64,000 nucleotides of DNA, taken from positions 620,001 to 684,000 of the forward strand of contig CANLSQ010000001.1 in assembly GCA_947493955.1 (NCBI GenBank), read 5' to 3'. Of this stretch, positions 50,326 through 52,949 are shown piece by piece (position 1 is the first letter of the stretch; each line of letters begins with the position of its first letter). The notes beneath the pieces were generated by a model, which was not told the origin of the DNA, did no database searches, and worked only from the letters and a program-made list of their open reading frames with translations. This DNA comes from an uncultured Sphingomonadaceae bacterium (GTDB lineage: Bacteria; Pseudomonadota; Alphaproteobacteria; Sphingomonadales; Sphingomonadaceae). Both the position numbers and the translations under genes were made by a program.

Positions 50326-50336
50326 TGGTGCGCTGT

Positions 50337-50374
50337 CTTAAGCCCCTCCCTTTCAAGGGAGGGGTTGGGGTGGG
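50337..50374. repeat. Left inverted repeat of the DUF559 module
   Basis: The repeat consists of CTTAAGCCCCTCCC, TTTCAA, GGGAGGGG and then TTGGGGTGGG. It contains its own hairpin (CCCCTCCC/GGGAGGGG) and is a near-exact reverse complement of the repeat at 50816-50852. It starts 12 bp after recN ends. Confidence 0.9.
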
Positions 50375-50439
50375 ATTTGGCGAAGCCAATAGACTTCAGC
50401 GTCCAATGTCAGCATGTTACCTTGCATCTTTCAGTGAAG

Positions 50440-50856
50440 ATGAAGGATTCCCGGTTGGTTGACCGATCAGTCTTGTTGCAACGTGCAAAGGAGATGCGAC
50501 GTAACCCGACAGAAACGGAAAAACGATTGTGGCAGCACCTGTCGGCCTCGCAATTGGGCGGATACAAATCTCGGCGGCAGGCGGTATTGGAGCAGTTCAT
50601 AGTCGATATCTTCTGCCCGCAAAAAGCGTTAATTGTTGAAATTGATGGAGATACCCATGATCTACCACAGGATGCAAAGCGTGATCTTCGATTGAGCCAA
50701 AAGGGTTTTCGAACTATCCGTTTTTCTAATCAAGAAGTGATCAAAAATTTGGACGGCGTGTTGATGGCGATATTGGAAATTTTAAGTGACATGCCTGATC
50801 GATGGCCGGTGTCCTCCACCCCAAACCCCTCCTCTGAAGAGGAGGGGCTTAAATGA
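50440..50856 (+). CDS. DUF559 (Vsr/MTES-like) endonuclease-fold protein
   Basis: This 138-residue protein has the DUF559 layout: [22 protein letters not shown], then [21 protein letters not shown], then [11 protein letters not shown] with the PD-(D/E)xK-like acidic core, and [20 protein letters not shown] at the end. Relatives are putative single-domain nucleases with no proven function. ATG 50440 is the best start; an in-frame ATG at 50365 lies in the left repeat. The last 14 codons or so are encoded by the right repeat, and the stop overlaps the ligA start by 4 bp. Confidence 0.88.
50816..50852. repeat. Right inverted repeat of the DUF559 module, carrying the ligA ribosome-binding site
   Basis: This near-exact reverse complement of 50337-50374 has CCACCCCAAACCCC, a TCCTCTGAAGAGGA hairpin core and GGGGCTTAA. 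GAGGAGGGG at 50839-50847 lies five bases before the ligA ATG at 50853. It also encodes the DUF559 C-terminal residues [12 protein letters not shown]. Confidence 0.9.
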
Positions 50857-52949
50857 GTCTCTCCGAAGCCGATGCCGCCAACGAACTGATGCGTCTGGCG
50901 AAGGTCATTGCCAAGCATAACAAGCTCTACCATGCGGAAGACACGCCGGAAATATCCGATGCGGATTATGATGCGCTGGTGCGGCGCAATAACGAGCTGG
51001 AAGAGGCTTTCCCGCATCTGGTGCGCGATGACAGCCCGAACAAACTGGTCGGCGCGGCGGTGGCGGCATCGCCGCTTTCCAAGGTTTCGCATGAGCAGCG
51101 GATGATGAGCCTCGATAATGGTTTTTCGGACGAGGATATCGCCGAATGGCTGGCGCGGGTGCGGCGGTTTTTGAATTTGCCAGAGGGCGAGCCGGTGGCG
51201 GTGACGGCGGAGGACAAGATTGATGGTCTGTCCTGCGCCTTGCGTTACGAGAAGGGCGAACTGGTACTGGCGGCGACGCGTGGTGATGGCCAGATTGGGG
51301 AGGATGTGACCGCCAATGTCCGGATGATATCGGATATCCCGCAGACATTGGCTGGCGAAGCGCCGGATGTCTTTGAGATCCGCGGTGAAGTCTATATGGC
51401 GAAAGCCGATTTTGATGGTCTTAACACGCGCCTTATGGACGAAGGCAAGGCCGATGCAGCGGCGAAAAACACGGCCTTTGATCCCGATAAAATCCGTCAG
51501 TTTGCCAACCCGCGCAATGCGGCGGCGGGTTCGCTGCGGCAGAAAGATGCCAATATTACCGCCAAGCGTCCGCTGAAATTCTGGGCCCATGGCTGGGGCG
51601 TGGCGAGCGCCTTGCCGGGGGAAACGGCGTTTGACGTCATGACGGCGATTGAAAGCTGGGGCCTTCCACTGTCGCCTTTGGTCAAAAGGTTTGAAGCGCT
51701 GGAAGAAATGCTCACCCATTACCGCCATATTGAAGCGGAACGCGCAGACCTGCCTTATGATATTGATGGGGTGGTCTATAAAGTTGACCGGCTCGACTGG
51801 CAGCAGCGGCTGGGCTTTGTCGCCAAGGCGCCGCGCTGGGCGCTGGCCCATAAATTTCCGGCGGAGCGCGCGCAAACGACGCTCGAGAGCATTGATATTC
51901 AAGTGGGCCGAACCGGCAAACTCACTCCGGTCGGGCGCTTGAAGCCCGTTACCGTTGGCGGCGTGGTGGTGTCCAATGTCACGCTCCACAATCGGGATGA
52001 AATTGAGCGCCTGGGCGTGCGTCCGGGCGACCGTGTGGTGGTTCAGCGGGCCGGTGACGTCATCCCGCAGGTCGTAGAAAATCTGACCGCTGAGGAGAAG
52101 CGCGAGCCTTACAATTTCTCTGATCATTGCCCAAAATGCAACAGCGAGGCGGTCGCCGAAGAGGGCGAGGTGGACGTGCGTTGCACGGGCGGTCTGATCT
52201 GTCCGGCGCAGCGGTTCCAGCGGCTGGTGCATTTTGTGTCCCGCGCGGCGCTCGACATTGATGGTCTGGGCGAAAAAAGCATAGCGGAGTTTATCGAAGC
52301 CGGATTTATCGAAAGTCCTGCCGATATTTTCCGGCTGCACCAGCATCGCGATGCCATATTGGCGCGTGATGGCTGGCAGGAAAAGTCTGTGGATAATCTG
52401 TTGGCGGCTGTGGAAAAGAAACGGTCCGCTGATGCCGCACGCCTGCTATTTGGTCTGGGTATCCGTCATATCGGGGCGGTAACGGCCCGTGATCTGATGA
52501 AAAATTTCACGACCTTGCCCAAATTAGCCGAAATCGGGATGGCCGCACGCGAAGATGAGGCGGTCCGTGAAGAGATTACCGCGATTGACGGGGTCGGACC
52601 AACGGTTGCTCAGGCCTTGGCGGATTTCTTCCATGAACCCCATAATCGGAAGGTTTGGAAGGATTTGCTCAGCGAGGTCACGCCGCCGGATTATATTGTC
52701 GAAACCCGGGACAGCGCCGTGGCGGGCAAAACGGTGGTGTTCACCGGTAAGCTGGAAACCATGAGCCGCGATGAGGCCAAGGCGCAGGCCGAGGCATTGG
52801 GAGCAAAAGCATCGGGTTCGGTTAGTGCGAAGACCGACTTGCTCGTCGCAGGACCGGGCGCCGGATCAAAAATGAAAAAGGCCGCCGAACTCGGCATTGA
52901 AGTGATTGACGAAGCGGCATGGGCGGAAATTGTGAAGGCGGCCGGATAA
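50853..52949 (+). CDS. ligA: NAD-dependent DNA ligase
   Basis: This 698-residue ligase seals nicks with NAD. The N-terminal Ia domain has [17 protein letters not shown]; the adenylated lysine is K122 in EDKIDGLS; an OB domain, the four-cysteine zinc finger (CPKCNSEAV ... [10 protein letters not shown]), helix-hairpin-helix repeats and a C-terminal BRCT domain ([20 protein letters not shown]) follow. The only nearby Shine-Dalgarno sequence is in the repeat immediately upstream, and the start overlaps the DUF559 stop. Confidence 0.97.

Follow-up and report, generated by a model that had tools for sequence, protein, structure and literature searches.

The triplex motifs known as TM, BoxC or PIT consist of a hairpin (C1-loop-G1) followed by a linker and a mirror third strand (G2), and they occur between genes, in many copies per genome and as inverted pairs of unlike members (PMC4666352). 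In the REP/REPIN-RAYT systems, the autonomous unit, or REPtron, is a nuclease gene between palindromic repeats; the nuclease copies are few, the repeats are dispersed and inverted pairs are dependent (PMC3733652; see also PMC2817692 and PMC3116915). Rickettsia palindromic elements and CGTC-tagged REPs are palindromic insertions within open reading frames (ORFs), and the CGTC palindromes "apparently lack a dedicated transposase" (PMC3733652). Among nucleases, the EDxHD homing endonuclease I-Bth0305I (structure 3r3p; PMC3943268) has a catalytic fold related to that of DUF559 proteins, and a cyanobacterial DUF559 gene has been assigned to its family (PMC9403480). VsrA of Caulobacter and YcjD of E. 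coli, the latter given a PD-(D/E)XK fold (PMC1189080), belong to the same DUF559/PD-(D/E)XK family, and their role is given as repair-like or unknown (PMC12907096, PMC12817139, PMC1189080). In this work, we analyzed a 64 kb stretch of the genome of an uncultured Sphingomonadaceae bacterium (contig CANLSQ010000001.1, positions 620,001 to 684,000; hereafter, the window), in which recN and ligA are separated by a DUF559 nuclease gene enclosed in a pair of inverted hairpin repeats. We consider it likely that this cassette belongs to a widespread family of minimal mobile elements, in which a DUF559 nuclease gene is bounded by inverted triplex-capable repeats, the nuclease acts on the folded ends and nuclease-free repeat pairs are the dependent form.

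The unit works like a REPtron, and both of its components, the DUF559 nuclease and the triplex repeats, were already known. The repeats of the window have the C1-loop-G1-linker-G2 layout with a mirror G2, and the family shares with TM/BoxC/PIT motifs the inverted pairs of unlike members, the many copies per genome and the intergenic positions. The preliminary description of the window had suggested an undescribed element; this has to be corrected, since the repeats belong to that already published class. The difference is that DUF559 is here the regular neighbor or core, whereas the authors of PMC4666352 came upon no mobility gene at the E. coli copies. In contrast with a REPtron, which has an HUH tyrosine enzyme and a GTAG tag, the enzyme here is PD-(D/E)XK/Vsr-like and the tag is a mirror G tail: the window gene is a DUF559 gene and not an HUH tyrosine transposase gene, and GTAG is present in neither arm. 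I-Bth0305I differs in that the unit described here lacks introns, inteins and further DNA-binding domains, and is bounded by repeats. The Rickettsia and CGTC-tagged insertions within ORFs resemble a repeat pair in truB of the window, described below, but have other stem sequences. The unit is neither a REPtron nor a demonstrated insertion sequence, and a homing mechanism is possible, with low probability. No publication joining DUF559 with triplex repeats was found among the results listed by our searches of the open-licence PMC literature. The text of a 2025 REP survey (PMC12306157) has no words starting with "DUF", "nuclease" or "triplex", and the terms "inverted repeat" and "transpos" are absent from the VsrA article (PMC12907096).

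The placement of the gene within repeats between recN and ligA was borne out by the coordinates (Table 1) and by the PF04480 match. The two 38-nt arms are inverted and 82% complementary without gaps, which makes the earlier wording "near-identical" slightly strong. When one 1-nt gap is allowed (TT versus TTT linker), they differ at four stem positions, and these four differences are two compensatory pairs, so that both hairpins are kept. Each arm has its own hairpin, as had been proposed, and folds alone better than its dinucleotide shuffles (z = -3.12 for the left arm and -3.55 for the right arm). Written as C1/G1/linker/G2, the left arm reads CCCCTCCC/GGGAGGGG/TT/GGGGTGGG, and both arms were caught by our triplex-motif detector; no Rfam match was obtained for positions 50200-51000 up to an E-value of 10. 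The encoded protein belongs to the DUF559 family by profile, catalytic residues and fold. It matches PF04480 with an E-value of 1.7e-31 (108.7 bits against a curated cut-off of 20.6), and no other Pfam family scores above cut-off in this gene. The catalytic pattern D..ExDG..H is intact, as it is in 149 of 156 full-length DUF559 domains examined. The AlphaFold model is of fair quality (mean pLDDT 81, pTM 0.75), and its top structural matches are 3hrl (NGO0050, a DUF559-like putative endonuclease, also a sequence match with E 3.3e-18) and 3r3p, the catalytic domain of I-Bth0305I (Foldseek E 2e-4, about 20% identity in the structural match); E. coli Vsr ranks 20th (E 0.16).

The repeats found with DUF559 genes form many subfamilies, among them CCCCTCC..GGAGGGG-TT-GGGGTGG, CCCTCTCCCC..GGGGAGAGGG-TT-GGGAGAGGGG and CCTTCTCCC..GGGAGAAGG-(second hairpin)-GGATGAGGG, and across them the G-rich tail G2 mirrors the 3' stem arm G1. 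A perfect mirror copy of the stem arm was present within 60 nt in 137 of 230 informative gene-facing hairpins, and a direct copy in 29; shuffled tails gave 2.2 perfect mirrors, and the stem of another repeat 10.3. A looser test, in which side was ignored, returned 186 perfect mirror versus 65 perfect direct copies (n = 520). A pairing of C1 with G2 was rejected, as it would predict the direct copy (29 perfect cases) and not the mirror copy observed (137). When G2 was anchored by its G positions only, the positions opposite a stem A were A in 192 cases, T in 138, C in 6 and G in 3. In purine triplexes of the reverse-Hoogsteen type, the base code is G.G-C, A.A-T and T.A-T. A mirror tail with A or T opposite stem A is this code, and each repeat is therefore, by its sequence, an intrastrand triplex motif. 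The linker measures 2-3 nt or 37-39 nt in the commonest of the listed classes, other lengths also occurring, and the long linkers, as judged by eye, can fold as a second hairpin.

To relate these repeats to the nuclease we used 162 loci, namely 62 of the 67 DUF559 matches of the genus (five, either weak hits or the second half of a broken gene, were left out), one locus from each of 70 out of 145 matching Pseudomonadota genomes, taken among the better-scoring matches listed, and 30 of 45 matches from 11 other genomes; orthologous loci are not independent in these counts. The Pseudomonadota sample covers 22 families, counted from labels, and 11 of its 70 loci come from the window's own family. 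DUF559 genes are present in 29 of 32 genomes of the genus, at many different loci. A triplex motif was located within 300 nt of DUF559 in 147 of the 162 loci (genus 55/62, Pseudomonadota 69/70, other genomes 23/30) and on both sides in 99 (42, 39 and 18, respectively), as compared with 4 of 810 dinucleotide-shuffled flanks (0/310, 4/350 and 0/150) and with 1/84, 4/38 and 2/27 positions elsewhere in the same loci. We also scored two-sidedness directly, by aligning the 300 nt upstream to the reverse complement of the 300 nt downstream: scores of at least 16 were reached across DUF559 in 47/62, 40/70 and 20/30 loci, versus 1/355, 0/276 and 0/131 positions elsewhere. The preliminary description had proposed to look for such repeats at other DUF559 genes of the genome; the pairing is seen again at other loci and in other phyla. 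Among the 15 loci without the motif, nine still have an inverted repeat scoring at least 16, of another make; the others are L148, where the motif appears under a more permissive detector, L153, L154, L155, L156 and L163. The enterobacterial- and Pasteurellaceae-like loci (labels given by eye) that were negative in the two-sided score have one-sided repeats or paired downstream repeats. Furthermore, nuclease identity correlated with repeat similarity in 104 elements after removal of same-site pairs (rho 0.245, maximum of 999 permutations 0.164), a comparison from which shared ancestry is removed only in part. In three Novosphingobium/Sphingomonas loci (L153, L154 and L163), a full-length but catalytically degenerate DUF559 gene adjoins a sufC-like gene and has no repeats; these genes are possibly domesticated relics.

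Loci from Bacteroidota, the phylum of Marivirga, gave a further view of the unit. A DUF559 match was present in 53 of 99 sampled genomes, and one locus each from 30 of these was examined with a slightly more permissive detector (one of them, L148, also belongs to the set of other genomes). The motif was near DUF559 in 28 of 30 loci versus 4 of 32 control positions, and a two-sided score of at least 16 was found in 8/30 versus 0/32. In 10 of the 30 loci the DUF559 domain lies in frame within an ORF of more than 600 amino acids, with the motif beside it in all ten and on both sides in five. The host ORFs, recognized by eye from their motifs, resemble metH (L148, L393 and L398), leuS (L383, L404 and L401), recG (L407) and restriction-modification genes (L384, L385 and L390). 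A DUF559 domain with its repeats in frame inside host ORFs is hard to explain except by insertion of the whole unit.

Repeat pairs also occur without a nuclease. Of 32 genus genomes, 28 gave matches to the tail pattern of the window's subfamily and none to the reversed control pattern. Among the matches listed we picked 26 inverted pairs from 10 genomes, some of which adjoin a DUF559 gene. Eleven pairs are spaced 61 bp apart, six 64-71 bp and nine 101-115 bp, and by eye the pairs have inner sequences in common (19 of 20 pairs fetched fitted the search expression). In the nuclease-free pairs L258 and L264, one end carries a ATTTGGCGAAGCCAAT extension, as does the left arm of the window. The window itself holds a nuclease-free pair in frame in truB, which appears to be a dependent-type copy of another subfamily. 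Neither this pair nor the mirror relation between tail and stem is mentioned in the preliminary description. These observations bear on the view that the repeats are expression signals (terminator, mRNA stabilizer or ribosome-binding site) selected around small operon genes. The hairpins do flank the gene, and the right one puts GGAGG before ligA, but such signals would not be expected within truB, metH-like and leuS-like reading frames or as nuclease-free pairs. Moreover, RNA hairpins have no need of the mirror rule, and such purine triplexes have little stability when made of RNA. We therefore regard this explanation as very improbable.

The comparison of recN-ligA spacing that had been suggested as a search for empty sites gave, in 29 genomes including that of the window, 12 junctions with DUF559, two with a repeat pair only (with 206 and 227 nt separating the recN stop codon from a LigA motif), three bare (50-53 nt), one short and 11 with other content. 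At yqeY-dnaG (29 genomes), DUF559 was found in six, a GIY-YIG gene in six and a small gene in six, eight junctions were bare (16-22 nt), one reads as a decayed repeat and two are other or undetermined. At trpB-trpA (27 genomes), three have DUF559, one holds what seems to be a truncated DUF559 gene together with another repeat pair, two have a repeat pair (one of them, in G007, beside a small gene), four are bare and 17 have other content. Hence, filled and empty orthologous sites, as well as the unit at unrelated loci, are seen at the three junctions of the genus and in the Bacteroidota ORFs, as in a mobile element. Neither observation that would have spoken against the preliminary description, repeat-free DUF559 genes elsewhere or a gene with diverged flanks at this site in all relatives, was made. 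Its idea of an inserted mobile cassette stands insofar as the repeats behave as element ends and filled, repeat-only and bare sites exist; a recent arrival does not, since relatives (G029, G018 and G025) have the window's DUF559 gene at the same site, with proteins 80-85% identical. Judging from the sequences compared, the window's copy is old and has been passed on within its subclade mainly by vertical descent; long persistence of this kind, accompanied by losses, predominates at these sites. The evidence for past movement is that loci, host genes and phyla differ. At ligA in the window and at the filled dnaG and trpA junctions, the next start codon is closely preceded by GGAGGGG or a comparable run of purines, and insertions may be tolerated at such tight operon junctions because the right end supplies GGAGG before the next start.

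The three junctions hold a wide variety of small unrelated genes that change from species to species, which gives them the look of general hot spots for insertion. This variety is what would be seen if triplex repeats destabilized the junctions and assorted genes gathered there, DUF559 being a repair or defence nuclease caught by chance. In line with such hitchhiking are the many non-nuclease genes at the same junctions in other relatives, the small gene adjoining the repeat pair in G007, the link of the E. coli repeats to genome instability (PMC4666352) and the repair role proposed for VsrA (PMC12907096). However, genes other than DUF559 are seldom so bounded: when ORFs were taken as genes, a score of at least 16 was obtained for 0 of 61 in the window (where the DUF559 ORF as called spans the right arm and hence has no score) and for 2 of 115 others in the loci, versus the 47 of 62 DUF559 genes of the genus. 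Hitchhiking does not account either for a unit in frame inside host genes. The absence of repeats from the three catalytically degenerate genes beside the sufC-like gene also argues against it, a point weakened by the other motif-negative loci, of which 10 full-length and two partial genes keep the catalytic pattern, nine having other inverted repeats. On balance, we consider hitchhiking unlikely.

The best reading of the cassette is that of an old palindrome-bounded mobile element, for which we infer cleavage and movement, with the DUF559 nuclease as the mobility factor. In this mobile element, the ends would become single-stranded during replication or repair and fold into a hairpin plus mirror third strand; the nuclease would recognize the folded ends and cut at the base of the fold; the unit would then be copied or rejoined elsewhere through host break repair, and nuclease-free inverted pairs would be moved in trans. 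RAYT enzymes acting on REP hairpins and homing endonucleases acting on their targets offer an analogy. A homing-type mechanism, in which the nuclease would cleave the unoccupied junction, the cassette would be copied in during repair of the break and the repeats would be aids to recombination or expression and not the substrate, finds some support in I-Bth0305I, whose catalytic domain is the closest characterized fold, in the cyanobacterial DUF559 gene already filed with that family (PMC9403480) and in the tendency of the genus repeat types to stay at their own junction. It is nevertheless quite improbable, as nuclease-free repeat pairs of recurring spacing are not a product of one-site homing, the protein is one small domain with no additional DNA-binding module for a long target and the diverged nucleases at yqeY-dnaG give no sign that homing took place recently.

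Several points weigh against the mobile-element interpretation. First, the two ends are not always alike: hairpins with the tail pointing away from the gene obey the mirror rule less (74 of 255 mirror and 26 direct copies, with 1.4 for shuffled and 12.0 for swapped tails). In addition, of the 162 loci, 48 have the motif on one side and 15 on neither, and the nuclease-repeat link is modest, the nearest nuclease from another site having above-average repeat similarity in 68 of 104 cases. The tail could also be read as a G-quadruplex, although the mirror order and the A-or-T reading, which a quadruplex does not predict, disfavor this as its sole meaning. The triplex of the E. coli motif had no in vivo support in the 2015 work (PMC4666352), VsrA, a DUF559 protein, has been proposed to be a mismatch-repair enzyme (PMC12907096), and the E. 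coli control genome of our family searches gave no DUF559 match although K-12 has ycjD. As regards movement, inverted ends are present; target-site duplications were not demonstrated at recN-ligA or yqeY-dnaG, and trpB-trpA doubles just the ATGA overlap, which is unavoidable for any viable insertion there. At yqeY-dnaG the nucleases are 63-81% identical and the DnaG N-termini 92-99% (10 pairs from five of the six genomes); the nucleases diverge with their hosts, which makes them old copies, and the patchy distribution could be due to loss. Recent transposition was not caught in the genus comparisons made (recN-ligA and yqeY-dnaG proteins), and neither cleavage, excision nor insertion was observed.

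Both parts of the proposed element coexist in E. coli. Holder et al. (2015) described 23 triplex motifs (TM/TMECO) in K-12, and the E. coli motif forms a stable triplex in vitro as single-stranded DNA, as determined by circular dichroism and nuclear magnetic resonance (PMC4666352). Transposase or integrase remnants were, according to that report, never found at the motif sites. The K-12 DUF559 gene, ycjD (L350, 4408-4761), lies between sapF and fabI. Motif no. 9 of Holder et al. is intact and located 168 bp from ycjD, between it and fabI, and an apparent decayed triplex motif overlaps the 3' end of ycjD. The chance that a random gene of ycjD length falls so close to one of the 18 motif loci is 0.003, a value calculated genome-wide, without restriction to intergenic positions, for a proximity chosen after the link was suspected. 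With coverage of at least 80% required, 3364 of 5426 E. coli genomes contain ycjD. In two ycjD-less regions that were examined, other genes adjoin sapF or fabI, as published for eefRABCD (PMC12817139), and these regions are therefore not clean empty sites.

Besides DUF559, another minimal nuclease of the genus showed a similar arrangement. Inverted palindromes from other families enclose 20 of 24 stand-alone GIY-YIG genes (L320-L346), versus none of three UvrC genes with the same domain, which were the sole control (24 of the 27 non-UvrC loci were used, three being too short). CGTCA was seen by eye in 5 of the 20 scored, a match that we do not equate with the published CGTC families; others read, for example, TTCGTGTCGAGCGAAGTCGAGA and GTCCTGAGCTTGTCGAAGGAC. 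The six GIY-YIG genes (PF01541) at yqeY-dnaG (L282, L284, L285, L290, L291 and L292) likewise lie between other inverted repeats. The genes of this kind have the appearance of a parallel system. It is tempting to speculate, and we do so tentatively, that the large orphan classes of bacterial palindromes are moved by minimal nucleases encoded by stand-alone genes, the BoxC/PIT/TM motifs by DUF559 and the CGTC/Rickettsia palindromic element-type repeats by single-domain GIY-YIG, with DUF559 reading a DNA triplex. To our knowledge, triplex recognition as a substrate has no precedent among known transposable elements. If DUF559 moves triplex repeats, the open question can be tested in K-12, which holds ycjD and the 23 catalogued motifs in one genome. 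If true, a large family labeled as of unknown function or Vsr-like would be recast as mobile-element enzymes, the in-frame palindromic peptides of proteins such as TruB would be accounted for in part, and there would be a natural example of a protein that may recognize a DNA triplex.

Table 1. Positions in the window of the DUF559 cassette, its host genes and the repeat pair in truB
Feature	Position	Strand	Remarks
recN	48661..50325	+	upstream host gene
Left end, triplex-type repeat	50338..50375	+	C1 50343-50352, G1 50355-50364, mirror tail G2 50367-50374; tail toward the gene
Inner mini-hairpin TTTGGCGAAGCCAAT	50376..50390	+	follows the left repeat
DUF559 (PF04480) nuclease gene	50440..50856	+	all catalytic residues of D-x(10)-E-x-D-G-x2-H in place
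Right end, inverted triplex-type repeat	50815..50852	-	hairpin 50826-50847; mirror tail on the minus strand 50816-50822
AGGAGG, Shine-Dalgarno-like, inside the right repeat	50840..50845	+	7 nt ahead of the ligA ATG
ligA	50853..52949	+	downstream host gene; ATG overlapping the DUF559 stop (ATGA)
Nuclease-free inverted triplex-type pair	38110..38270	38110-38134 +, 38248-38270 -	in frame in the truB ORF 37625-38689

Some further features of the window complete this description. The probable start of the DUF559 gene is the ATG at 50440, the TTG at 50365 given in the ORF list falling within the left arm. At the other end, the preliminary description was right in that the right repeat codes for the final codons of the nuclease, GAGGAGGGG terminates at 50847, five bases ahead of the ligA ATG (50853-50855), and the DUF559 stop TGA (50854-50856) overlaps this ATG; with its GGAGG, the right repeat may plausibly now drive ligA translation. 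The DUF559 gene of the window is the single match to its family in this genome. With zero mismatches, CCCCTCC-N8-GGAGGGG is found in the two arms only, both in the 64 kb and in the 3.4 Mb genome, and a reading as a dispersed repeat of this genome was rejected for this reason. At up to 2 mismatches, 0.21 matches of the hairpin pattern are expected in the window; the genome has five more places at 2 mismatches, for a total of 7 versus 4 for the reversed control, and the tail pattern has one extra place with 1 mismatch (L003, G000:C3:114764-114779). In the truB pair, only the left arm folds better than its shuffles (z -2.4, as against -0.9 for the right arm). Nine other genomes of the genus have a pair of the same type at this place in truB and 19 have other stretches there, all in frame; many of these are, by eye, other palindromic pairs, and the shortest is that of G014.

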